This document shows, piece after piece, positions 2,037-17,717 of a stretch of DNA of 64,000 nucleotides; positions within the stretch are counted from its first letter, which is position 1, and each line of letters starts with the position of its first letter. Position numbers and translations under genes: made by a program. Source of the DNA: Erysipelotrichaceae bacterium. GTDB taxonomy: Bacteria; Bacillota_I; Bacilli_A; Erysipelotrichales; Erysipelotrichaceae. The stretch spans positions 1 to 64,000 of the forward strand of contig SVBO01000004.1 in the NCBI GenBank assembly GCA_015058845.1, written 5' to 3'. The notes beneath the pieces were generated by a model, which saw only the letters and a program-made list of their open reading frames with translations, was not told the origin of the DNA and ran no database searches.

Positions 2037-2876
2037 TTAAACAGACATGGATGTTTCCCTGTACTTAACAGGGGGCATCCATTTTGTTTTAGCTTGAATA
2101 CGTTCGTTATTATAATAATTTATATATTCATTCACCGCTATAGAAAACTTTTCAAAGGAATCATATCCCTTCTCATATCCATAATACATCTCATTCTTAA
2201 GCCTTCCGAAGAATGTTTCCATAATACTGTTATCATAACAATTTCCTTTTCTAGACATGGATTGGATAATACCATGTTCTTTTAACTGATTTCGAAAATA
2301 CTCATGTTGATATTGCCATCCTTGATCAGAATGAAAGATCAATCCCTCAACGTTAGGGAACCTCTCAAAAGCATTAGTAAGCATTCTATGGATCTGTTCC
2401 ATATTTGGACTAAGTGACAGATCGTAGGAGATTATCTCGTTTGTGTTCATATCTAAGATCGGAGATATATAACACTTCCCCCACGAAAAGTTGAATTGTG
2501 ATACATCTGTAGTCCATTTCTGTAATGGCGCTGTTGTAGAGAAATCTCTATCAATTACATTATCAGCAATCTTTCCAACTGTTCCCATATAGGAGTGATA
2601 TTTCTCTTTAGGCCTCTTTCCTAATAGTCCCATGATATGCATCAGTCTTTGTACTCGCTTATGGTTTATTTTATATCCTCTATTTACTAGCTCTTGATAG
2701 ATCCTTCTAACTCCGTATCTACGTTTATTTTGTTCGAATATTTCCTTTATTCTAACTGATAACTCTTTATTCTTGAGTGTTACTACGTCTTCTTTACCTA
2801 TTTCAAAGTAATAGGTAGATCTAGCCATTCTCATTGCTTTTAACAGATACTTTAATTGATATCCTTCTTTACGCAA
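2037..2876 (-). CDS. IS3-family transposase OrfB (DDE integrase core)
   Basis: Catalytic half of the IS transposase, with an HTH_21-type N-terminal region followed by an RNase H-fold rve domain. The DDE residues are visible in TTDVSQF, FHSDQGWQYQ and NSIMETFFGRLK, and the last helix carries YYNNERIQ. The nearest start codon is a TTG at 2876 without a convincing ribosome site. The frame is open upstream to the slippery A7G at 2944-2951, so the protein is almost certainly made as an OrfAB fusion by -1 frameshifting. Confidence 0.93.
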   Translation of the reverse strand: MRKEGYQLKYLLKAMRMARSTYYFEIGKEDVVTLKNKELSVRIKEIFEQNKRRYGVRRIYQELVNRGYKINHKRVQRLMHIMGLLGKRPKEKYHSYMGTVGKIADNVIDRDFSTTAPLQKWTTDVSQFNFSWGKCYISPILDMNTNEIISYDLSLSPNMEQIHRMLTNAFERFPNVEGLIFHSDQGWQYQHEYFRNQLKEHGIIQSMSRKGNCYDNSIMETFFGRLKNEMYYGYEKGYDSFEKFSIAVNEYINYYNNERIQAKTKWMPPVKYRETSMSV

Positions 2877-3415
2877 TTCTTGGATGATCGCTGCTTTCTC
2901 GCCTTGAGTCGCGCAGCTTCCTTTTCTTCCCTCAAGGCGATTTCTTTTTTTATGACTTCATTCTCCGCTTTGATGTATTCTATTTCTGCTCTAAGTCTTA
3001 TCAACTCTTCTCTTTCTGATTCACTAAGTGGTCTTGTATCGATCTTCTTTGGCATGGTGGACTCCTTACTTGGTCTTCCTCTTTTTATGTTTACAAGTCC
3101 ATTATACCCTAATGTTTTATATTTGCGAACCCATTGATAGAGTTGCCCATCATTAATTCCATTTGATAACGCTACTTCTTTGATTGATTTTCCAGCTATT
3201 ACTTTAGCAACTAGCTCATATCTTTCTTCTGCTGTCCATTCTTTATTATGATTCTTATGTCTTAATGCTTCTGATCCGCATGTCGTTTCTATTCTAACCC
3301 ATTTTCTTATTCCCCTACGAAACTCTTCTTGTTTTACATCTTCTGGTGTTTCCATCCATATCCCTTTTCGATATAATTCTACACATTTTCTTTTAAACTC
3401 ATAACTGTATTTCAT
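2852..3415 (-). CDS. IS3-family OrfA (helix-turn-helix, leucine-zipper protein)
   Basis: DNA-binding first ORF of the IS150-type element, 187 residues from the ATG at 3415. The N-terminus (MKYSYEFKRK) and a second HTH (ELVAKVIAGKSIKEVA...GINDGQLYQW) recognise the ends. A C-terminal coiled coil of ELIRLRAEIEYIKAENEVIKKE type mediates multimerisation. The longer reading frame begins outside the IS end and is not the real start. It ends 25 bases inside orfB, in the frame from which ribosomes slip to make the fusion. Confidence 0.9.
   Translation of the reverse strand: MKYSYEFKRKCVELYRKGIWMETPEDVKQEEFRRGIRKWVRIETTCGSEALRHKNHNKEWTAEERYELVAKVIAGKSIKEVALSNGINDGQLYQWVRKYKTLGYNGLVNIKRGRPSKESTMPKKIDTRPLSESEREELIRLRAEIEYIKAENEVIKKEIALREEKEAARLKARKQRSSKNCVKKDIN
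2899..2951 (-). promoter_or_regulatory. Programmed -1 frameshift signal of the IS
   Basis: Read on the minus strand, seven A residues plus G (2944-2951) form an A AAA AAA G slippery site in the orfA frame. Five bases later begins a 10-bp perfect stem (2931-2940 pairing with 2899-2908) around a 22-base loop. The -1 frame is stopped just upstream of the slippery site and is open from there into orfB. Confidence 0.85.
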
Positions 3416-3452
3416 AATTAAAACCCCCTCCACTGGTTTTGTCCAGTAAAGG

Positions 3453-3464
3453 GGGTACATATCA
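3453..3464 (-). repeat. IS right inverted repeat
   Basis: Inverted copy of TGATATGTACCC at 1998-2009. Confidence 0.85.
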
Positions 3465-3492
3465 GTGCCATAAGGGTCTGTTATATGAATTC

Positions 3493-4476
3493 TTATTCCC
3501 ACTCGATTGTAGCAATAGGTTTAGGTGATAAGTCATAACAAACACGACATACACCATCCACTTCAGCTAAGATACGATTAGTGATAGTTTCTAATACTTC
3601 CCAATCGATTCTAGGTACTGAACAATGCATAGCATCCACTGTATTGACAGCACGAATGATCACTGGCCAACTATCTAAACGCTTACCATCCTTAACACCA
3701 GTAGTCTTGATATCAGGAACTACTGTAAAAAATTGCCATACTTGAGTTGTTAATCCAGCCTTATCGAATTCTTCTCTAAGGATAGCATCCGCTTCACGTA
3801 AAGCATGTAGACGATCACGAGTAATAGCACCAGTACATCTTACACCAAGACCAGGTCCTGGGAATGGTTGACGATCTACCATAGCAGCAGGAAGACCTAA
3901 TGCTCTACCTACTACACGTACTTCATCTTTGAATAATAATTTAACTGGTTCTACTAGACCTTCGAACTTGAAATCTTCAGGAAGACCACCTACATTATGG
4001 TGAGCCTTAACACCCTTACTTTCAATGATATCTGGATAAATAGTACCTTGTGCTAAGAAAGAGATACCCTCTAACTTACTAGATTCTTCTTCAAATACAC
4101 GTACGAATTCTTCACCAATGATCTTACGTTTCTTTTCAGGTTCAGCTACACCAGCTAACTTATCTAAGAAACGATCAGTAGCATCGATATATACTAAGTT
4201 AGCATCTAATCCATTTTGGAATAGATCGATAACACCTTCAGATTCACCCTTACGCATTAAACCATGGTTAACATGTACACATACTAATTGCTTACCAATA
4301 GCCTTGATTAGTAAAGCAGCTACTACAGAAGAGTCTACTCCACCAGATAATGCTAATAATACCTTCTTATCGCCTACTTGTTCTCTAACTAGACGAACTT
4401 GTTCTTCAATAAATGCATCAGCTAATTCTTTAGTTGTAATTCTTTTCATTGTTTCTGGTCTAACATTTGTATCCAT
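3493..4476 (-). CDS. guaA: GMP synthase, ATP-pyrophosphatase subunit only
   Basis: Synthetase half of GMP synthase, which aminates XMP to GMP using ATP. It has the PP-loop LALSGGVDSSVVA near residue 43, the FPGPGLGVR motif, and the C-terminal dimerisation domain ending KPIATIEWE. It is 327 residues, whereas usual bacterial GuaA is about 510 because a glutamine amidotransferase domain of about 190 residues is fused in front. Here that domain is absent and no class I amidotransferase gene is adjacent. The enzyme must use free ammonia or a separate subunit, as in archaea. The start at 4476 leaves a short leader before the conserved ELADAFIEEQ helix. Confidence 0.93.
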   Translation of the reverse strand: MDTNVRPETMKRITTKELADAFIEEQVRLVREQVGDKKVLLALSGGVDSSVVAALLIKAIGKQLVCVHVNHGLMRKGESEGVIDLFQNGLDANLVYIDATDRFLDKLAGVAEPEKKRKIIGEEFVRVFEEESSKLEGISFLAQGTIYPDIIESKGVKAHHNVGGLPEDFKFEGLVEPVKLLFKDEVRVVGRALGLPAAMVDRQPFPGPGLGVRCTGAITRDRLHALREADAILREEFDKAGLTTQVWQFFTVVPDIKTTGVKDGKRLDSWPVIIRAVNTVDAMHCSVPRIDWEVLETITNRILAEVDGVCRVCYDLSPKPIATIEWE

Positions 4477-4513: not shown

Positions 4514-5704
4514 CTAGTTTGTATAGTTATCGAAGTAACCTTGTACTAAAATAACTGGTGTACCCTTGTCCCCTGAACCACTTGTTAAGTCACATAGAGA
4601 ACCGATCAAGTCTGTTAATTGACGTGGAGTAGTTCCTTGAGATGCCATGTTTCCTACTAAGTTCTCATTCTTTTCACGAATGCTCTTAGAGATCGCTTCT
4701 TTTAATGCTTCACCACTTAAGTCTTTGAAGTCATTGTCTGCTAGGTACTTTAACTTTAATTCATTTGGTGTACCGATCAAGCCATCAGTAAATGCAGGTG
4801 ATACGACAGGGTCTGCTAATTCCCAGATCTTTCCTTGAGGATCTTTGAAAGCACCATCTCCATATACCATTACTTCTACAAGCTTACCTGTAGCTTCTTT
4901 GATACGTGCTTGGATGTCTAATACTAGATCCTTACATTCACGTGGGAATAGTTTAACTGCATCTTCAGTAGACTTATTAGTACCAAGTAGACCATACTTT
5001 TCGTTATAGCCACTACCATTTACTGGAGCATTCAAGATCTCATCTAAGCTACATACTTTTTCAGCTCCATTAGCTAATAAGATACGTTTTGTACGTTTTC
5101 TTGTGTGGATATCACAGTTAATTACATATTTAGTATACTCTAAGATAGTCTTTGCACGATTAGCAAATACTACTTCTACTTCACAACCTTCTGCTGTGAT
5201 GATGTCGCTGTAGTAAGCAACATAATCAATATTTGTGAATGGGTGTCTGTTTTCACCGAATAATTCACGATATCTTTCTAGTGATAATACATCACTGTAT
5301 GGGTTGATACCAGCATCATCTAGTTTATCGATGCTTACTAATTCATTACCTACTTCATCACTAGGGTAACTTAACATAAGAGTGATCTTCTTAGCACCTC
5401 TAGCGATACCCTTTAAACAGATTGCGAAGCGGTTTCTAGATAGAATTGGGAAAATAACACCCACAGTCTCCTCACCAAATTTTGCTTTCACGTCTGCTGC
5501 GATATCATCTACTGTTGCGTAGTTACCTTGTGCTCTAGCTACGATCGATTCAGTAATACCGATAACATCTCTGTCGCGTAGTTCAAATCCTTCAATTTCT
5601 GCTGCTTCAAGTACACTTGTTGAAACGATCTCAGCTAAGTTATCTCCTTTGCGGATGATCGGACAACGAATTCCTCTTGACACAGTACCGACTCTTCTAT
5701 CCAT
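4514..5704 (-). CDS. Coenzyme F420-0:L-glutamate ligase-like protein
   Basis: A protein of about 396 residues resembling the CofE/FbiB family of F420-0 gamma-glutamyl ligases. Similar regions are the N-terminal IIRKGDNLAEIV, the DVIGITESIVARAQGN segment, the VYGDGAFKDP motif and the GTPNELKLKY region. No F420 biosynthesis genes are in the window, and most Firmicutes do not make F420, so the real acceptor is unknown. The ATG at 5704 is preferred because AAAGGA lies nine bases upstream; earlier ATGs overlap that site. It lies 38 bp upstream of guaA on the same strand and may be co-transcribed. Confidence 0.75.
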   Translation of the reverse strand: MDRRVGTVSRGIRCPIIRKGDNLAEIVSTSVLEAAEIEGFELRDRDVIGITESIVARAQGNYATVDDIAADVKAKFGEETVGVIFPILSRNRFAICLKGIARGAKKITLMLSYPSDEVGNELVSIDKLDDAGINPYSDVLSLERYRELFGENRHPFTNIDYVAYYSDIITAEGCEVEVVFANRAKTILEYTKYVINCDIHTRKRTKRILLANGAEKVCSLDEILNAPVNGSGYNEKYGLLGTNKSTEDAVKLFPRECKDLVLDIQARIKEATGKLVEVMVYGDGAFKDPQGKIWELADPVVSPAFTDGLIGTPNELKLKYLADNDFKDLSGEALKEAISKSIREKNENLVGNMASQGTTPRQLTDLIGSLCDLTSGSGDKGTPVILVQGYFDNYTN

Positions 5705-5899
5705 ATATTCCATTCCTTTCAAATATCCTCTGATTTGAGATACATTTTTTTACGCAATAATTATAGTATTAAAATGGGGTATTGTAAATAAAAACATAAT
5801 AATTAGAGGTAAAAAAATGTTGAGAAATTGTTTGGGATTATTGATGGTTCTTTCTTAGTTTAAGTGTGAAACGCTTTTAGCTTTTATAAGTTTCGATGT

Positions 5900-7338: not shown

Positions 7339-10300
7339 TTAATACATTACTTCATTATCTGTCCACAATTCACATTGAACCATTACAGTCTGTACAGCAT
7401 CTTCCATGCCCTCAGGTGGATATTTATGTTGTTTAAGTAGTTTCTTGATCAACATTCTCATTCTCGCTCTAGCAGACTCTTTTTGTTGCCAGTCAACAGT
7501 CTTATTCTTACGTAATGTTTCTGTTAACTCTTTAGTAATAGCAATTAGTTCAGAGTTCTCATAGAAATCTTTGATAGCTTGTGGTTTAGTCAATGCATCA
7601 TAGAATGCCATTTCATCTTCAGATAAACCTAAAGAATCTCCTTCGGATTTAGCATCTTGAATTTGCTTTGCCATTTCCAATAATTCTCTAATGACTTCTT
7701 CATTAGTCAGCATGCCATTTAGATAAGCATTTATAGTAGTTTGAATGATCTCAGAGAACTTCTCAGACTTAACAACATTAGTCTTCTTATACACTTTGAT
7801 CTGATCTGCGATCAAACGTTTCAACATTTCTAATGCAAGGTTCTTTTCTTTTATATTAGCTACTTCTTCTAAGAATTTTGGATCAAACAAAGAGAAACCT
7901 TGTTTAATATCAGAGAATAGATTGATCACTCCGTCACTCTTAATTGATTGTTTCAACAATTCATTAATTCGTGCATTCATTTCTGGTAAAGAGATCTTTG
8001 TTCTTCCACCCTGTTCAGATAAGCGCATTACTAATACACGCACTGATTCAAAGAATGCTGCTTGATAACGTTCTTGTTCTGTTGTTAGTGAAGAACATAA
8101 TGATAATGCTTGATGTAATGCAAGAGCTTCTTTAATGAATGTTGTTTTATCTTCATTTTTCTTAGGATCTACGATGAAGTTAACTGCACCACTAATAGAT
8201 TTAGCACGTTCTAATTCTGAACCTTTCATAAACTTAGAATAATCATATCCATAGAACAAATCATTACAAATAGATAATTTTTCTAAGAATTTAGGATAAG
8301 CAGCTTTCGCAATATCCATATCTCCATAATTCTTCTTATCTCGCTTTGTATAGTCATTCATAGCCTCTTTTAAAGCAGAAGCAATACCAATATAGTCTAC
8401 AACTAGTCCGCCTTCTTTGTTCTTGTAAACACGATTTACTCTCGCAATAGCTTGCATCAAATTATGACCATTCATTGGTTTATACACATACATAGTTGCT
8501 AGAGAAGGTACATCAAAACCTGTTAACCACATGTCTACAACAATAGCGATCTTTAGTGGATCTTCATTATCTTTGAATCTTACTGCTAACTCATCTTTGT
8601 ATGCTTTTGTTTTCCCTACGATTTCTTTCCAATCTTCTGGATCCTTGTTATCAGAAGTCATTACTACAGCAACTTTGTCTTTCCAGTTTGGTCTTAATTC
8701 TAAGATCTTCTTGTAGATTTTAATTGCTATTGGTCTAGAATAAGCAACTAACATTGCCTTTCCTGTTAATTCATTTGCTCTATAATTTTCATAATGGTAA
8801 ACGATATCTTTTACCAAAGAATCTATTGTTTGATCTGCTCCTAATACAGCTTCCATTCGACTAAGTTCTTTCTTACTCTTCTGGATCACTTCTGGATCTG
8901 CATTATATGCCATAATGTCATATTCTTTATCGATCAACTTAATAATAGTTTCATCAAGTTGTAGCTTAACAACACGACTTTCATAGTAGACTGGTCTTGT
9001 TGCACCATCTTCTACAGCTTGAGTCATATCGTAAATATCAATATAATTACCAAACACTTCTACTGTACTTCTATCCTTTGATGAGATAGGTGTACCAGTA
9101 AATCCAATGTATGTAGCATTTGGTAGACTATCTCTAATAATACGAGCAGTGCCCCTTATAATTTGAGCAATATCTTCTCCTTGCTCATTCTTACTAATCT
9201 TAACTTTTTCTTCTAGTCCATATTGACCTCTATGAGCTTCATCAGCCATTACGATGATGTTTCTTCTACCTGACAAAGGTCCTGCAGACTCTTCAAACTT
9301 CTGCATTGTAGTAAAGATGATACCATTAGCTTGTCTTCCTGCTAATAACGATTTCAAGTTTTCTCTACTTGTTGCTTGGATCGGATTTTGTCTTAAGAAG
9401 TCTTTACACTTAGAAAATTGACCATATAATTGATCATCTAAGTCATTTCTATCTGTTACAACTACAATGGTTGGTGATTGTAATTGTTTCTGTAATAAGT
9501 GTGCATAGAATACCATCGATAATGATTTACCACTACCTTGTGTGTGCCAGAATACACCACCTTTACCATCCGTTACTGTTGCTTTCTTTGTAGATTCTAT
9601 TGCCTTATTAACTGCAAAGTATTGATGATATCCAGCTAAGATCTTAACTAATGCTTTCCCTTCATTAGAGAAACAAATAAAGTTCTTAATAATATCTAGT
9701 AATCTAGCTTTCTCAAACACTCCTTCAAAGAAAGTATCAAATTGAGCATATTGAGTATTCTCATAACTACCATCTTTAGTCTTCCACTCCATAAATCTTG
9801 TTTCATTAGAAGTGATAGTACCAGCCTTAGAAGTAAGTTGATCACTCATTACACAGATAGCATTATACACAAACATAGAAGGAATATCTTGCATATAATT
9901 TCTTAGTTGTAAATAGGCTTCAGAAGCATTAGTTTCGTCTCTAGAAGGTGATTTTAATTCCATTAATACTACAGGAATACCATTTAGAAATAATATAATA
10001 TCAGGACGTTTAGTGCTATTCTCAATGAAAGTCCATTGATTGGCAATAATAAAGGAATTATTCTCAATATTCTCATAGTCCACTAAATAAACAATAGTAG
10101 ACCTCTCTTCACCATTCTCACTATATCTAACTTCTATACCATTTTGAAGATAGTCCATGAATACTTGGTTCATTTGTACTAGTTCTCCATTTTCAATATT
10201 ACGAAGTTTCAATAGTGCTTCGTTTATGGCATTTATATGTATTCCCTTATTGATCCTATAGATAGATTCTTCTAGTACCCCTTCGTATAACGGGGAATGG

Positions 10301-10407
10301 AAATCTCTTTCAACATCTGGACCATAGGCATAGTTATAGTCTAAGTTATTTCTAAATAACTCAATGATCGAATTCTCGTAATCTGCCTCACTAAACATCA
10401 CTGTCAT
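7339..10407 (-). CDS. hsdR: Type I restriction enzyme, R (motor/nuclease) subunit
   Basis: The 1022-residue HsdR translocates DNA and cuts it when the recognition site is unmethylated. The PD-(D/E)xK nuclease is visible near residues 130-155 (RPDIILFLNG...VLMELKSPS). The SF2 motor has Walker A in WHTQGSGKSLS, DEAH in MADEAHRGQYG, TGTPIS, and helicase motif VI in QAIARVNRVY. The C-terminal third is helical, for binding the methylase core. The start has GGAGG nine bases upstream. It is last in the minus-strand operon hsdM-hsdS-222 aa-hsdR. Confidence 0.95.
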   Translation of the reverse strand: MTVMFSEADYENSIIELFRNNLDYNYAYGPDVERDFHSPLYEGVLEESIYRINKGIHINAINEALLKLRNIENGELVQMNQVFMDYLQNGIEVRYSENGEERSTIVYLVDYENIENNSFIIANQWTFIENSTKRPDIILFLNGIPVVLMELKSPSRDETNASEAYLQLRNYMQDIPSMFVYNAICVMSDQLTSKAGTITSNETRFMEWKTKDGSYENTQYAQFDTFFEGVFEKARLLDIIKNFICFSNEGKALVKILAGYHQYFAVNKAIESTKKATVTDGKGGVFWHTQGSGKSLSMVFYAHLLQKQLQSPTIVVVTDRNDLDDQLYGQFSKCKDFLRQNPIQATSRENLKSLLAGRQANGIIFTTMQKFEESAGPLSGRRNIIVMADEAHRGQYGLEEKVKISKNEQGEDIAQIIRGTARIIRDSLPNATYIGFTGTPISSKDRSTVEVFGNYIDIYDMTQAVEDGATRPVYYESRVVKLQLDETIIKLIDKEYDIMAYNADPEVIQKSKKELSRMEAVLGADQTIDSLVKDIVYHYENYRANELTGKAMLVAYSRPIAIKIYKKILELRPNWKDKVAVVMTSDNKDPEDWKEIVGKTKAYKDELAVRFKDNEDPLKIAIVVDMWLTGFDVPSLATMYVYKPMNGHNLMQAIARVNRVYKNKEGGLVVDYIGIASALKEAMNDYTKRDKKNYGDMDIAKAAYPKFLEKLSICNDLFYGYDYSKFMKGSELERAKSISGAVNFIVDPKKNEDKTTFIKEALALHQALSLCSSLTTEQERYQAAFFESVRVLVMRLSEQGGRTKISLPEMNARINELLKQSIKSDGVINLFSDIKQGFSLFDPKFLEEVANIKEKNLALEMLKRLIADQIKVYKKTNVVKSEKFSEIIQTTINAYLNGMLTNEEVIRELLEMAKQIQDAKSEGDSLGLSEDEMAFYDALTKPQAIKDFYENSELIAITKELTETLRKNKTVDWQQKESARARMRMLIKKLLKQHKYPPEGMEDAVQTVMVQCELWTDNEVMY

Positions 10408-10423
10408 ACTACTAAACCTCCAA

Positions 10424-11092
10424 CTAAGTTAAATACTCATCACCAATTAATAATCTTAGTTCGCCATTTTCTCTTTTTGTTACTACTGCTTCCTCAATAG
10501 TAGGATTCTTTAACTTTTTCAAGAAATTAAATGGACCAACTATAGAAAATACAAATACTGGCGACTTAGTGCCATCTGTTAACGTTATCGTTAATATAAG
10601 TGTATTATCCGCAAGCATTTGAAGTAACTCTGCTTTCCCATTAACATTGCCATTTTCATAGTTTGTATTTTGTGCGAAAGAAAATATACAAAGTATAAAC
10701 TCTTTCTTTATTTGTTCATTTACTTGTATTCCATATTCTTGAAAGAAGCTATCTAATTCTTTGTTCCACTCAGACTCTTTTATACCCGCATTATTCAGTT
10801 TATATCTTTTGGCAGGTTTCTTTTTCTTGTTAACAACATCATAACTAGCTGTAGACCTTATAACTTTAGGAGCAATAACCTCTAACTGTTTTATAGCATC
10901 CATCGTCTTCCCATGTTCTCTAGTGCGATGTGCAATCAAATTACAATACTCAGAAATAATAATATATTTTGATTCATCAACATATTCACGTATGAATATT
11001 AGAAAACCAAGAATATCAAATTCATCAAACAATCTGTTCTCTATTAGATATTTATAATGATTAAATATTACTAATTCTTTATTTTGAAACAT
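10424..11092 (-). CDS. Unknown protein embedded in the Type I R-M operon
   Basis: A 222-residue protein with no family I recognise. It has a helical N-terminal part (MFQNKELVIFNHYKYL), a lysine-rich middle near residues 85-100 (NKKKKPAKRYK), and a C-terminal half that may be alpha/beta. No membrane segment or integrase motif is visible. The start is supported by GAAAGGAG nine bases upstream. That ribosome site lies just outside the invertible hsdS segment, so the gene would be co-transcribed with hsdM and hsdS in either orientation. It ends 16 bases before hsdR. Confidence 0.7.
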   Translation of the reverse strand: MFQNKELVIFNHYKYLIENRLFDEFDILGFLIFIREYVDESKYIIISEYCNLIAHRTREHGKTMDAIKQLEVIAPKVIRSTASYDVVNKKKKPAKRYKLNNAGIKESEWNKELDSFFQEYGIQVNEQIKKEFILCIFSFAQNTNYENGNVNGKAELLQMLADNTLILTITLTDGTKSPVFVFSIVGPFNFLKKLKNPTIEEAVVTKRENGELRLLIGDEYLT

Positions 11093-11116
11093 AGAATAGT
11101 ACTCCTTTCTAATAGA

Positions 11117-11773
11117 GTAAACAATAATTTAGAGCAACAAATGCAAGCTCTATACAAGTCTTGGTTTGTTGATTATGAACCTTACAATGGTACAAAACCA
11201 GCAAACTGGAAAAAAACAGATATATATTCAATCTCAAACATAATTTATGGTGCTCCTTTTGCTTCTAAATTGTTTAATACTGAAGGATTAGGCAAACCCA
11301 TCATTCGTATTCGTGACTTAAAAGAGCAAGCGTTTGTTACATACACCACAGAAGAACATCCTAAAGGTCACTTAATCCAACCCGGTGATATTGTAGTTGG
11401 AATGGATGGTGAGTTCAGACCATATCTTTGGGGTAATGAGGAGGCTTGGCTTAATCAACGAGTATGTATTTTCGAGAACAAGCGACCTAATGGAAAAGCA
11501 TTTCTCTTATGCACAATAAAACCCTTGCTGAATCATATTGAACAAACTCAAGTAGCAACTACGGTCATTCATATTGGCAAAAAAGATTATGATGCTTTTG
11601 AAATCTTTCTTCCTGATGAAGATTCTCTCAATCGTTTTGATGAGATAACAACGCCTATGGTAGAGCAGATTGTGAACTATCGTTTGGAAAACAAACGACT
11701 CTCAAATCTTCGAGATATATTACTTTCAAAACTGATGTCAGGCGAAATAAACGTATCTGACCTTGATTTCTAA
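11117..11773 (+). CDS. hsdS: Inverted silent 3' half of hsdS (second TRD)
   Basis: C-terminal half of a Type I specificity subunit, lying opposite to the rest of the operon. It begins in the central conserved region (NNNLEQQMQALYKSWFVDYEP), continues through one target recognition domain, and ends in the distal conserved helix (YRLENKRLSNLRDILLSKLMSGE). It has no credible start codon or ribosome site; the only upstream start is a TTG at 11084 in non-homologous sequence. Its stop overlaps the stop of the opposing N-terminal half. Inversion between the 15-bp repeats would fuse it in frame to that half, giving HsdS of about 396 residues. Confidence 0.85.
   Translation, partial: VNNNLEQQMQALYKSWFVDYEPYNGTKPANWKKTDIYSISNIIYGAPFASKLFNTEGLGKPIIRIRDLKEQAFVTYTTEEHPKGHLIQPGDIVVGMDGEFRPYLWGNEEAWLNQRVCIFENKRPNGKAFLLCTIKPLLNHIEQTQVATTVIHIGKKDYDAFEIFLPDEDSLNRFDEITTPMVEQIVNYRLENKRLSNLRDILLSKLMSGEINVSDLDF
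11118..11132 (+). repeat. hsdS inversion repeat, copy A
   Basis: TAAACAATAATTTAG, matched perfectly in inverse orientation at 11778-11792. It encodes the NNNL residues of the central HsdS repeat in the same reading frame as copy B. Confidence 0.85.
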
Positions 11774-12327
11774 GCCACTAAATTATTGTTTATACTTTTG
11801 TTTATTAATATTTTATTGCAAATAGCATCCAAAATACTAACAATTTTATTTTGTATATTAATTTCTAGTAGTGGAAAATCAAGATCAACAAAATCTTTTT
11901 GATATAAGTGCGGTATTACACTTCCTTCTGTTCTCATTGTGATGAAATCTTTAAAATAATTTGAACAAAAATAATAATAAATAAATCGAGTATTAATTAT
12001 TTCTGGCCTCAAGTTTCTTATCACGAAAATACCAGATGCTACAGTTGTTGGTATATCTAAAGTTGTAATATAACCAATCTTACCTATAGTTCCATCTTTT
12101 GATATCAATATATCTTCTGGTTGAAGCATAATCTCAGGAGATTCGTCATATCGTTCTTTAGAAATAAAGCCCGCTTTATTCCAATCAATTCCATTTTCCG
12201 TTAATGATTCTCCATTGATAATACGAAATCCGCTTTTATCAAGATACTCTTTCTTTTTTAGTCCTTTCCAACCAATTCTCCCCTTTATATATAAATAATC
12301 ACCAAGCTTTACCGTTTTAAATTTCAT
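11770..12327 (-). CDS. hsdS: Type I R-M specificity subunit, N-terminal half (one TRD)
   Basis: The first half of HsdS, 185 residues with a single target recognition domain (KLGDYLYIKGRIGWKGLK at the start) and the beginning of the central conserved helix (NKIVSILDAICNKILINKS). It stops two codons after the inversion repeat, whereas full HsdS proteins are about 380-440 residues. The ATG overlaps the hsdM stop by about 11 bases, so translation is coupled. As it stands it could act as a half-subunit that dimerises to read a palindromic site, or the system may be off. Confidence 0.85.
   Translation of the reverse strand: MKFKTVKLGDYLYIKGRIGWKGLKKKEYLDKSGFRIINGESLTENGIDWNKAGFISKERYDESPEIMLQPEDILISKDGTIGKIGYITTLDIPTTVASGIFVIRNLRPEIINTRFIYYYFCSNYFKDFITMRTEGSVIPHLYQKDFVDLDFPLLEINIQNKIVSILDAICNKILINKSINNNLVA
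11778..11792 (-). repeat. hsdS inversion repeat, copy B
   Basis: Inverse copy of TAAACAATAATTTAG at 11118-11132, within the 3' end of the expressed hsdS half. Confidence 0.85.
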
Positions 12328-13846
12328 ACCCTATTGCCCCCAACTTCTTACGAATCTCTTCCTCAAGTTCATGAGACTTAGCAAATAGATCAGATAACTC
12401 AGAAGTTAATCTAGTCATCTTCTCTTCAAATGGTTCTCCATCATCTTCTTGTTCTTCAATACCAACATATCTACCAGGAGTTAAGATATAATCTTGCTTA
12501 GCAATATCAGCAGTCTCAACAACAGCACAGAATCCCTTCTTATCTTCTAAAATACCATTCTGGAAGTCTTCAAAAGTCTTTGCAAGTAAATCAATATCTC
12601 CTAACGAACCATCTTCTTGAATACCTTCCGTTAGATCACGATGCTTTCTATCTACCATCTTACCCATCTTACGAGCATCAATAAATAGTGTCTTCCCCTT
12701 TTGTTTTTTATTCTTACTAATAAACCATAATGTTACTGGAATAGTCACACTATAGAATAACTGTGTAGGCATTGCTACAATACCCTCTACAAGATCTGCT
12801 TCAATAATATTCTTACGGATATCCCCTTCACCACTTGTTTGAGACGATAATGCGCCATTTGCTAATACTAAACCAATCTTACCATTAGGAGCTAAATGAT
12901 GAATCATATGTTGGATCCACGCAAAGTTAGCATTACCTGCAGGAGGTACACCATATTTCCATCTAATATCATCTTGCAATTGATTTTGACCCCAATTTGA
13001 TAGATTAAACGGTGGATTTGCCATAATGAAATCTGCCTTTAAATTCTTATGAAGATCATTGAAGAATGTATCTGCATGATGTGGTCCGAAGTTAGCATCA
13101 ATACCTCTAATAGCCATGTTCATTTTAGCCATCTTCCAAGTATCTGCATTAGACTCTTGTCCATATACAGAGATCCTGTTTCTATTACCACTATGAGCTT
13201 GTAAGAACTTAACAGATTGTACAAACATTCCACCCGAACCACAACACGGGTCATATACTCTACAGTCTTCAAAAGGCTTTAGAATAGCTACAATAGTCTT
13301 AACAATGCTAGATGGTGTATAGAATTCTCCACCCTTTACTCCTTCATAAGCAGCAAATTGTTGAATACAATATTCATATGTTCTACCTAATAGATCTTTA
13401 CTTCCATCGGTATCTTCCATATTCATATTAGTAAATAAGTCTACAACTTCACCTAATACTCTTTTATCCAAATCTGGGCTAGCATAGTTCTTAGGCAATA
13501 CATTCTTTAAAGTTTTATTCTCGTTCTCAATAGCTCTCATTGCGCTATCAATAACTGTACCAATTTCTGGCGTGTGAGCAGCTTCTGAAATAGTAGACCA
13601 TCTTGCTTCCTTAGGTACATAAAAGATGTTTTCGGAAATGTATGCATCTACATCATCTTCAAAGCCATCACCATCAGCAACTAGTTCGTTATACTTCTTT
13701 TCAAATGCTGTTGAAATATATTTTAGAAATATTAAACCTACGATTACTTTACGATACTCAGCAGCTGGAATGTGTCCCCATAGTACACATGCAGCATCCC
13801 ATATCTGTTTCTCAAACCCTAGATTAGCATTATTTACTTCTGCCAT
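12317..13846 (-). CDS. hsdM: Type I R-M DNA adenine methyltransferase subunit
   Basis: HsdM, about 509 residues, an N6-adenine methyltransferase that works with HsdS. The N-terminal HsdM helical domain is followed by the SAM motif VYDPCCGSGGMF near residue 200 and the catalytic NPPF in IMANPPFNLSNWG. The C-terminal coiled coil contacts HsdS. The ATG at 13846 is chosen because AAGGTG lies just upstream; the GTG at 13855 overlaps that site. It is first gene of the operon. Confidence 0.95.
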   Translation of the reverse strand: MAEVNNANLGFEKQIWDAACVLWGHIPAAEYRKVIVGLIFLKYISTAFEKKYNELVADGDGFEDDVDAYISENIFYVPKEARWSTISEAAHTPEIGTVIDSAMRAIENENKTLKNVLPKNYASPDLDKRVLGEVVDLFTNMNMEDTDGSKDLLGRTYEYCIQQFAAYEGVKGGEFYTPSSIVKTIVAILKPFEDCRVYDPCCGSGGMFVQSVKFLQAHSGNRNRISVYGQESNADTWKMAKMNMAIRGIDANFGPHHADTFFNDLHKNLKADFIMANPPFNLSNWGQNQLQDDIRWKYGVPPAGNANFAWIQHMIHHLAPNGKIGLVLANGALSSQTSGEGDIRKNIIEADLVEGIVAMPTQLFYSVTIPVTLWFISKNKKQKGKTLFIDARKMGKMVDRKHRDLTEGIQEDGSLGDIDLLAKTFEDFQNGILEDKKGFCAVVETADIAKQDYILTPGRYVGIEEQEDDGEPFEEKMTRLTSELSDLFAKSHELEEEIRKKLGAIGYEI

Positions 13847-13953
13847 TTTGATCACCTTCCGTACTTTTTTGGTTTATATATATAATTATATCGTATATTT
13901 TTTAGTAAAAGTAGGATTTTATTGACTATTATTAGAAATATATTATTTGTTAC

Positions 13954-14057: not shown

Positions 14058-15230
14058 TTAGTCTTTCTCAAACATAGCACAAACTTTTATTACACTTTCT
14101 TTTGCTAGCATTTCTTTGGATAATAGTCTTTTATAAAACTTTTTGATATCAGCATCATTTAAGATTAGATTAACTTGTCTATTATTAATTGCAATCTCGA
14201 ACAATGCTTCTTTCTCAGGAATAGACCAATCATTAAATCTATCTAATTCGCCAATAATTGTATGTGTGCTCGCAAAGCTAGTACTATTTTCTAGAGAAAT
14301 AATTAAATCCGTCTTTTGTTGTTTTTCTTCTCCTGTTGCTTTATCAGCATTTAGGTATTCTTTGTAATTACCGAAATGTATTTCTTCTAATGACTCATTA
14401 GCAGCGGTACGATCAATAATCTTTTTTACCAAGTTATCCAACTCCGTATTTTCGGAATAGTTTGCTTCTGCAAAATAATTGATCCGCCTATCACGCATCA
14501 TCTTGTAGACTTTTGTTTTATCTTTTGTACTATGACTATAGACTCCGATCGAATACCCTCCGTTATCGTTTACAAGCTTCATACATGGTATATCTGTATC
14601 ACTATCTCCAATATAAATCATATTTCTGAATGGCACTCTAATTTCATTAGGTTGAAAGTGATCATTTATACCTGGATCGTTCACATCTAAAACCCCTTTT
14701 TCAATTCTAAATAAAAATTGGGTTTTATTTGTATAATTAACAACTTGAGCAGGCCATATAGCTACACCTCTATCATTATAGTAATATGAACTGGCATAGA
14801 TTCTTTCAAACGCACCAGCTCTTGCTACCGAAGTGCCTTCAATCATTTCTTTTAATCCTGAAGAAATAATATAATGTTCAACAATTACACCTTTGCTTCT
14901 ACCATATGCACGAATTCTCTCGAACCACCCTTCAACACCAGGAAAAAGTTTTACTTTTTTACCATACTCATATAACGTTTGCTTATTAAAAACAAAGTTA
15001 CCTTCTGCCTCTTGCAACATTTTGAACATATAAGCAAGATTTTGATCCATATCATTATTCGCTGCAATACCATTGGATTCCTTCCAGAAATCACTCGTAT
15101 CATATCCAATTGCTTGAATATACCCTTGCGCTTGCATGTCATTCGGTGTCAGTGTTTTGTCGAAGTCATAACAAATCGCCAACACTGGCATCATTTCTTT
15201 TGTTTTTCTTTCGAATTTCTTTTGGTTCAT
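14058..15230 (-). CDS. HAD-superfamily phosphatase with extra C-terminal region
   Basis: A 390-residue haloacid dehalogenase-like hydrolase. Motif I is CYDFDKTLTP near residue 20, motif II is IISSGLKEM, and motif IV is GDSDTDIPCMK near residue 208, giving a phosphoserine-phosphatase-like fold. The last 110 residues (roughly 280-390) are helical and not part of the catalytic fold. It is strongly supported by AAGGAGAACAC before the ATG. It lies between the R-M operon and AbiE and has low GATC density like the other island genes. Its substrate is unknown. The divergent sRNA promoter is about 200 bases upstream. Confidence 0.75.
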   Translation of the reverse strand: MNQKKFERKTKEMMPVLAICYDFDKTLTPNDMQAQGYIQAIGYDTSDFWKESNGIAANNDMDQNLAYMFKMLQEAEGNFVFNKQTLYEYGKKVKLFPGVEGWFERIRAYGRSKGVIVEHYIISSGLKEMIEGTSVARAGAFERIYASSYYYNDRGVAIWPAQVVNYTNKTQFLFRIEKGVLDVNDPGINDHFQPNEIRVPFRNMIYIGDSDTDIPCMKLVNDNGGYSIGVYSHSTKDKTKVYKMMRDRRINYFAEANYSENTELDNLVKKIIDRTAANESLEEIHFGNYKEYLNADKATGEEKQQKTDLIISLENSTSFASTHTIIGELDRFNDWSIPEKEALFEIAINNRQVNLILNDADIKKFYKRLLSKEMLAKESVIKVCAMFEKD

Positions 15231-16102: not shown

Positions 16103-17035
16103 CTATTCCCCTATCTTTCTCAACACTCTACTAACTTTCTCAAACACCCTCAAAGCATCATCAAAACTCTGCTTCTCATCTGTATAAAGCAAACTTCTAT
16201 GTAGACCCTCGTATATCCTTCTTGTTTCCACACTAAAACAGTGCTTCCAACTCTCAAAATCATATATACCAGTCGGATCATACACTATATCTATATTTCT
16301 CTTCTGTAAATAAAAGTAATCAGTCTCTTTCGTAAGTCTAACAATCCATTTTAACTCATCTTTATCTTCAAGAAGTCTTTTTATTTCTGGTAAGTGATAT
16401 AGCCTTGTAACATCATAAATATGTCTCACTTTATTACCAAGAGTACCACATAGTGCATGTCTCTTCACAGACATAAGCTTATCAATAAATGTTCTTTCAA
16501 TATTTAAAACATTCAAAGTTACTTCTTCTAATCCAAATCTCTTGATATCATCTTGTCCATCATGTAATTCTAAGAACTCATGTATATAAGACTTAAATGA
16601 TTTCTTACTATATGGATCAGGTCGAACACTACTTCCTATCTCAAGTTTAACTCTATTATCCTTATTACCAAACCACACATACATACTCTTAGATCTATTA
16701 GAACGTTCATGTGCTATCTTCTCTGTACTTGCTGTATTAGTCATTTTTTCTTCAATTCTCTTGATCTTCTTATCGCACACCTTATCGCTTAACTCCATCC
16801 CTAAGAATGTTAGATCAATATCTTCAGAAAATCTCTCGATAGATCCAGGATAACATTTACTTAATGATGTTCCACCTTTAAATATACATTGATCTACATA
16901 TTCACTATCTGCAAGATTCTTTAGTAACAAAACTATGTAATAATCTCTTTCAACCGCTGATTCAGGTAAATGCATATAATCTGCAACAATGGACACTAAA
17001 GCTTTAAATTCCTCTAAATGTTTGTGCAAGTTCAT
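16103..17035 (-). CDS. abiEii: AbiEii/AbiGii-type nucleotidyltransferase toxin
   Basis: Toxin of a type IV abortive-infection toxin-antitoxin pair, 310 residues. The nucleotidyltransferase core is visible as FKGGTSLSKCY near residue 55, followed by RFSEDIDLTF, which supplies the G-[GS] and DxD metal-binding residues. A further KLEIG strand and a helical C-terminal region follow. Family members inhibit translation, in characterised cases by modifying tRNA. The start overlaps abiEi by 32 bases and has GGAGG before it, so the two are translationally coupled. Confidence 0.88.
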   Translation of the reverse strand: MNLHKHLEEFKALVSIVADYMHLPESAVERDYYIVLLLKNLADSEYVDQCIFKGGTSLSKCYPGSIERFSEDIDLTFLGMELSDKVCDKKIKRIEEKMTNTASTEKIAHERSNRSKSMYVWFGNKDNRVKLEIGSSVRPDPYSKKSFKSYIHEFLELHDGQDDIKRFGLEEVTLNVLNIERTFIDKLMSVKRHALCGTLGNKVRHIYDVTRLYHLPEIKRLLEDKDELKWIVRLTKETDYFYLQKRNIDIVYDPTGIYDFESWKHCFSVETRRIYEGLHRSLLYTDEKQSFDDALRVFEKVSRVLRKIGE

Positions 17036-17717
17036 GTAGTTCCTCCATTCTTGGATACTTATAATTAGATAATGCAGATAAATATTTATCTAAAGTATTC
17101 TGTACATTGTAATAACATAATATCTCTCTCAAAAAAGCAATCGTAGACTTCTTATAAGACACCTTAGAGATCACCTTTTCAAAAACATCTTCACGATAGT
17201 ACTCTGCTAATGTATTACAATATTTCAAGAATGCTAAATAGTTAATATCCTCGATCTCATAGAAATTCTGTAACACATCTAACCCCTGGATCATATCTTC
17301 AACATCCTGTGTAAACTCTAATTCTACCTGTTTAATAGAAACATTACGAATAGTCTTTGTGAAACCATCTAAAGTAGAAGATAGTACTTGTACTGTCTTA
17401 GCTACTTGTGTCGTTAGATTAAGCCTATTATATAACGCATATCCAATCACTGTACCTGTATTATTCTTTGTAAAAGATTCTATGATCTGTTCTTGTGAAG
17501 GAGGTATTATTCCATATTTACTAGATTTAGGCTTATAGTAGATCCCTCTAGCTGCTTTTGCTAGTTCACCATCTTTATACATTCTCTCTAACATCTTATA
17601 GTAAGCTACTTCTGATATATCTTTAGACATACTTTCTTTATATACTTTACTAGCAAATATCAATTCATTCTCTTTGTAATACTGAATAGCCTTTCTAAAA
17701 GCTGTATTGCTCTTCAT
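17004..17717 (-). CDS. abiEi: AbiEi-type antitoxin / transcriptional autorepressor
   Basis: Antitoxin partner of AbiEii, 237 residues. An N-terminal winged-helix region (FASKVYKESMSKDISEVAYYKMLERMYKDG) precedes the RGIYYKP turn seen in this family, and the C-terminal domain is mixed helical. Characterised AbiEi proteins bind inverted repeats at their own promoter. A matching palindrome overlaps the -35 element here (17767-17795). GGGGG lies a few bases before the ATG as ribosome site. Confidence 0.85.
   Translation of the reverse strand: MKSNTAFRKAIQYYKENELIFASKVYKESMSKDISEVAYYKMLERMYKDGELAKAARGIYYKPKSSKYGIIPPSQEQIIESFTKNNTGTVIGYALYNRLNLTTQVAKTVQVLSSTLDGFTKTIRNVSIKQVELEFTQDVEDMIQGLDVLQNFYEIEDINYLAFLKYCNTLAEYYREDVFEKVISKVSYKKSTIAFLREILCYYNVQNTLDKYLSALSNYKYPRMEELHELAQTFRGI

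Follow-up and report, generated by a model that had tools for sequence, protein, structure and literature searches.

In the pneumococcal ivr/cod/SpnIII locus (PsrA/CreX/IvrR), inverted repeats lie within hsdS between the TRDs and a piece of hsdS faces the opposite direction. We count this locus, together with the REBASE class of duplicated inverting hsdS genes (PMC7394358), among the systems closest to a type I restriction-modification locus located in a stretch of 64,000 nucleotides from an Erysipelotrichaceae bacterium (contig SVBO01000004.1, positions 1 to 64,000), which is referred to here as the window. The window locus has the same placement of inverted repeats, an opposite-facing hsdS piece and the same 15-bp repeat class as ivr/cod/SpnIII, and its relatives carry a locus-encoded tyrosine recombinase. 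Unlike ivr/cod/SpnIII, it lacks a recombinase and a full-length hsdS, and its one unit carries only one pair of short repeats. Most likely, the window locus is a single-unit form of this inverting class of type I restriction-modification systems that has been shortened, has no recombinase and is at present OFF.

Organization of the window locus

Pfam and PADLOC identified hsdR, hsdM and hsdS in one operon. The gene for the type I DNA methyltransferase subunit, hsdM (12317-13855, minus strand; Pfam N6_Mtase, 351 bits, and HsdM_N), is upstream of hsdS, and its product shares 85-87% amino acid identity with the closest relatives in other loci. The gene for the restriction subunit, hsdR (7339-10407, minus strand; HSDR_N, SWI2_SNF2 and T1RH-like_C), is downstream. 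The hsdS 5' half in the expressed position (11770-12327, minus strand; 185 aa; Methylase_S, 57 bits) contains one TRD and the beginning of the central helix, and its C-terminus, KSINNNL-VA*, lies two codons beyond a 15-bp repeat, exactly as the initial annotation had it. The 3' half (11120-11773, plus strand; 217 codons; Methylase_S, 31 bits; PADLOC Specificity_I, 192 bits) is an opposite-facing cassette which contains the second TRD and the C-terminal helix, starting with NNNLEQQMQALYKSWF and ending with LMSGEINVSDLDF before its stop codon. No other HsdS was found in the whole assembly, where these two halves are the only Methylase_S matches. The proposed one-cassette arrangement lacking a full hsdS stands.

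The 15-bp repeat, TAAACAATAATTTAG, is present at the distal site (11118-11132, plus strand) and, inverted, at the proximal site (11778-11792, minus strand), which we call R1 and which is in frame in the 5' half. The two copies are identical at 15/15 positions and the repeat is in frame within both hsdS halves, as had been claimed. Inversion of the predicted invertible segment of 675 bp (11118-11792) in silico reproduced the anticipated product, a single ORF for a 396-aa, two-TRD HsdS ending at 11137. Across the 1.75 Mb of the assembly, no further copy of the 15-mer with up to one mismatch was found; a control by dinucleotide shuffling, confined to the window and allowing 2 mismatches, gave an expectation of 0.6.

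The 3' half contains no stops and its GC content at the three codon positions (48/31/28%) is coding-like and similar to that of hsdM. Both halves differ from their nearest relatives chiefly at synonymous sites, and as these are saturated, pN and pS are given instead of a dN/dS ratio. The 5' half shares 88% amino acid identity with that of L010, a locus described below (pN 0.07, pS 0.79), and the 3' half 64-66% with its counterpart in a full HsdS from the locus L074 (pN 0.22, pS 0.87). The undecayed condition of the 3' half suggests that the OFF state is of recent fixation or that flipping goes on, and it speaks against long-term locking.

The span 10424-12327 also takes in a gene which is unrelated to HsdS and not part of it, a 222-aa accessory gene (orf222; 10424-11092, minus strand) in the slot between hsdS and hsdR. 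No match to orf222 was found in Pfam, PADLOC or NCBIfam, no significant match in PHROG, and no relative among 273 family genomes, viral contigs or plasmids. An assignment of orf222 as a recombinase or regulator was rejected, given that it has no family match and that its single-sequence AlphaFold model (mean pLDDT 44.7) is too poor for use. Elsewhere in the window, an AbiEi/AbiEii-like type IV toxin-antitoxin pair (16103-17717) and a HAD-family gene matching the PADLOC candidate PDC-S34 (14058-15230) are located close to the operon, which suggests a defence island. An ORF at 3493-4476, which we take to resemble the stand-alone ATP-pyrophosphatase domain of GMP synthase, is accompanied by IS3-type transposase ORFs (2037-3502) and an F420 ligase-like gene (4514-5722).

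Related loci and their two-unit plan

HsdM searches of the family, the order, the class and viral contigs yielded about twenty informative loci. Their standard plan is hsdM-unit 1-tyrosine recombinase-unit 2-(accessory gene)-hsdR, in which each unit consists of a 5' half, a site, a 3' half and an inverted site. The sites are 14-15 bp long and vary little (TAAACAATAATTTA, TAAACAAGAATTTA, TAAACGATAATTTA and others), and up to four of them, alternating in orientation, were detected in recombinase-bearing relatives. A unit is called ON if both of its halves face in one direction and OFF if its 3' half is reversed. A genome scan also identified L010, on an Oscillospiraceae MAG, which has the same hsdM type and the same 5' half joined to a different 3' half. 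The 15-bp site of L010 is identical to that of the window and arranged in the same way, and it is followed by a tyrosine recombinase and, at the contig end, the first part of a second hsdS. From this sequence identity with a sister locus that has an adjoining tyrosine recombinase, we conclude that the 15-bp repeat is a real recombination site.

Two or more units are present in the recombinase-bearing loci L033, L034, L036 and L057-L060, all with unit 1 OFF and unit 2 ON, in L011, L038, L044, L047 and L068, all with unit 1 ON and unit 2 OFF, in L205 (two units ON, one OFF) and in L203 (IMGVR_UViG_3300026522_000617). At least one full HsdS is kept in nearly all two-unit loci; L203 has a recombinase with both hsdS units OFF and represents a natural half-only state. 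Six hsdM contigs (L031, L032, L061, L064, L065 and L067) end at the site or within about 25 nt of it, and in the genome G285 the hsdM contig stops at the site while the segment between the sites forms a separate 3.3-kb contig (C38, locus L222). Such breaks, which an assembler puts out when both orientations are present, are indirect evidence of inversion, which is likely to be active in the relatives.

The slot directly before hsdR often holds a varied accessory gene, such as one with an FRG domain, one with GIY-YIG and DUF4357 domains, or one of unknown type (window, 10424-11092; L057, 10840-12108; L063, 10641-11933; L033, 9585-10433), and accessory genes before hsdR are also present in L011, L047, L058, L059 and L068. 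In L038 (6712-7980), the TRD which is N-terminal in the window (11773-12330) is found at the C-terminal TRD position with 62% identity, which suggests movement of TRDs between positions. A scan of viral contigs with the 15-mer pattern gave scattered single matches only and was uninformative. A phylum-wide scan with the OFF-junction pattern returned two-unit loci elsewhere and no further single-unit locus; a match in the genome G643 was set aside as an apparent chance match.

Origin, switching and product of the single unit

We consider it probable that the window locus is a shortened two-unit inverton from which the recombinase and the second unit have been excised, and which was left OFF with rare or absent flipping. 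The ancestor would have been a two-unit inverton with a tyrosine recombinase between its units. Recombination between two same-facing sites would have removed the recombinase together with parts of both units, and the one remaining unit, in the OFF state, would have become joined directly to the accessory gene and hsdR. In the present orientation, the cell would make only the 185-aa half-HsdS, in which case the restriction-modification system is most likely silent or of reduced activity. The geometry would allow an inversion that restores the 396-aa HsdS, but without a recombinase acting in trans we expect this to happen rarely or not at all.

From the sites, frames, gene content and architecture of the relatives, all of which can be read directly, we infer the excision history, by way of loci of other species, as well as the OFF phenotype and the locking. 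Given the alternating direction of the sites, site 1 is same-facing with site 3, and site 2 with site 4, in the four-site relatives, and recombination of either pair would excise the recombinase with unit parts. In most relatives, site 2 is followed by a leader with a GTGGGTGGCGGGAGTTAAT-like hairpin and then by the recombinase, and site 4 is followed by a short stretch that includes an RBS and the start codon of an accessory gene or hsdR. By its outer flank, the distal site of the window is R4-like, being followed by CTCTATTAGAAAGGAGTACTATTCTATG, a junction with an RBS and then the ATG of orf222 and with no hairpin-like recombinase leader. This junction of the site-4 type looks like the outcome of an excision between direct site copies; as orf222 is without relatives, the R4-type assignment rests on form (RBS, spacing and missing leader) and not on homology. 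A further locus with a single unit, this one ON, is present on a viral contig (L063), which ends after an FRG-domain gene and before any hsdR. This gene follows the distal site and has 43% identity to the FRG gene located downstream of site 4 in L057. In pneumococcus, the tvr locus excises a circle that carries the recombinase and pieces of hsdS, and the authors of that study noted that loss of the circle could fix a shortened locus (PMC6265443). Fixation of an excision is the simplest reading of the single-unit state, and what had been presented as a free-standing new switch design appears instead to be one unit of a two-unit, recombinase-driven inverton with the rest missing.

The stop codons at the cassette end bear on what the OFF state produces. 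At 11770-11773 the stops of the two strands overlap, the TAA of the 3' half at 11771-11773 (plus strand) and the TAG of the OFF 5' half at 11772-11770 (minus strand). Two-strand overlapping stops at a fixed distance from the repeat are seen in the window (11770-11778) and at the cassette 3' ends of relatives (L010, L033, L034, L036, L057-L060, L063, L068, L070, L203 and L205). With stop codons on both cassette strands, the length of the half-HsdS from an OFF gene is set; in 18 of 20 OFF 5' halves the reading frame closes two codons past the repeat, and in the others three codons (one) or six codons (one) past it, the OFF half of L058 stopping earlier than others. Overlapping opposite-strand stops require the last sense codon of the cassette to end in T or C, which is so in 22/22 cases. 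Twelve of these are Leu codons, a type that ends in T or C in only about 20% of its occurrences in the hsdM and hsdR genes of the same loci. The naive product is 6e-10, or 8e-7 with one cassette per locus, both figures ignoring shared ancestry. The pattern suggests that selection has acted either to fix where the half-HsdS ends or to keep a flank bound by the recombinase.

Among features of phase-variable type I systems, inverted repeats in hsdS with in-frame exchange are present in the window (fused ORF, 396 aa), whereas there is no recombinase gene and, in place of a full-length expressed hsdS with extra pieces, there are two halves only. A recombinase gene is typical of inverting type I loci and not universal, pneumococcal G54 being without one. 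Neither a recombinase nor a remnant of one was found in the hsd locus or the window, in agreement with the initial annotation, and there were no extra HsdS traces in the locus. The search for a recombinase acting in trans, which the initial annotation had proposed, was made in the genome assembly (a draft of 64 contigs and 1.75 Mb, 97% complete, from which a recombinase may be missing). A serine recombinase was discarded as candidate, no resolvase being found in the genome. Four tyrosine recombinases are present, and none is of the hsdS-locus type, to which they are at most 29% identical, the best match being a XerC/D-like enzyme. Two of the four have XerC/XerD-like scores, below the curated cut-offs of those models, and the remaining two are of 305 aa and 423 aa, the former scoring far below the XerC/XerD models.

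A working one-cassette switch, in which a recombinase encoded elsewhere or in the unassembled 3% inverts the 675 bp and keeps ON and OFF cells mixed, would account for the identity of the sites and the intact, coding-like halves. The 305-aa enzyme, distant as it is from XerC/XerD, could be such a recombinase; the single-unit state occurs both OFF (window) and ON (L063), and the contig ends near the site and the separate 3.3-kb contig of G285 point to inversion in relatives. We nevertheless hold a working switch to be conceivable but rather unlikely, since the genome encodes no close relative of the hsdS-type recombinase and the window contig assembles through both sites without a break, contrary to several relatives. 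Moreover, in pneumococcus the inversion at a 15-bp repeat strictly needs the locus recombinase CreX and ceases without it, whereas longer repeats recombine without it (PMC6620402). With only 15-bp repeats and no cognate recombinase, slow or no flipping is predicted for the window locus, which may be stuck in the half-gene state. The same breaks in contigs of relatives, along with the draft state of the assembly, could be taken to mean that a true two-unit inverton was misjoined at its repeats by short-read assembly. Such an artefact is highly improbable, as assemblers usually work with k-mers longer than the 15-bp repeat, the assembly has no leftover contig with the site, this recombinase type or another HsdS, and the single-unit form is found again in L063.

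The half-HsdS could itself be a working product, two copies of which mark a palindromic two-part site together with HsdM, so that the two orientations give two specificities. Engineered half-HsdS proteins do dimerise and methylate palindromic sites (PMC6158711; EcoR124I NT, PMC2877798), NgoAV alternates between a full and a truncated HsdS that differ in specificity (PMC7394358), L203 holds only half-HsdS genes beside its recombinase, and the constant OFF-half end and T/C codon endings fit a selected product. We regard this as improbable for the window half, which stops inside the central helix (after NNNL-VA) and is without the EQQ..LYKSWF segment, the EQQMQALYKSWF segment being on the inverted cassette. 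It has an N-terminal TRD with an incomplete central conserved region, which makes dimer activity doubtful, and the EcoR124I NT (1-215) and CC398 halves keep the whole region. Two-unit loci nearly always retain at least one full HsdS, and a tidy stop may just prevent junk extensions or serve recombinase binding. Of the dimerising half-HsdS in the initial annotation, the conserved end position of OFF halves speaks for it and the truncated helix against it. It is similarly unlikely that, across the family, OFF is a selected second product in which half-HsdS pairs with itself and acts with HsdM on a palindrome, with the window as a minimal two-state version; if true, each flip would alternate asymmetric and symmetric targets across the family. 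The excised, OFF and largely locked single unit is thus the reading that we prefer.

Comparison with described systems

No description of a single-unit, recombinase-less form was found in the open-access literature, and the two-strand stop feature of the cassette ends was not found in the literature searched. In the pneumococcal tvr/SpnIV locus, the circle with the recombinase and parts of hsdS can be excised between same-facing repeats (PMC6265443), and a hairpin precedes the recombinase gene, as is apparently so in the relatives of the window locus, which have four sites including same-facing pairs. The tvr/SpnIV locus has direct repeats and toxin-antitoxin-like regulators, whereas the window has kept one inverted pair only and has neither same-facing site copies nor a recombinase. 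In LreRMII of L. reuteri (hsdR-hsdS-recombinase-hsdS-hsdM; PMC6122466), two hsdS units are placed round a recombinase, as in the relatives; unlike the window, both its hsdS genes are full length and the recombinase is present.

NgoAV, EcoDXXI delta-C and EcoR124I NT resemble the window in producing no more of HsdS than its N-terminal half, but NgoAV switches through a G-tract and not by inversion. EcoR124I NT (residues 1-215, PMC2877798) and the CC398 half (PMC6158711) keep the whole central conserved region, within which the window half ends. The window locus plausibly shows how recombinase-driven shuffling of hsdS can end, in that the shuffling sites can also delete the recombinase, with a frozen single unit remaining.
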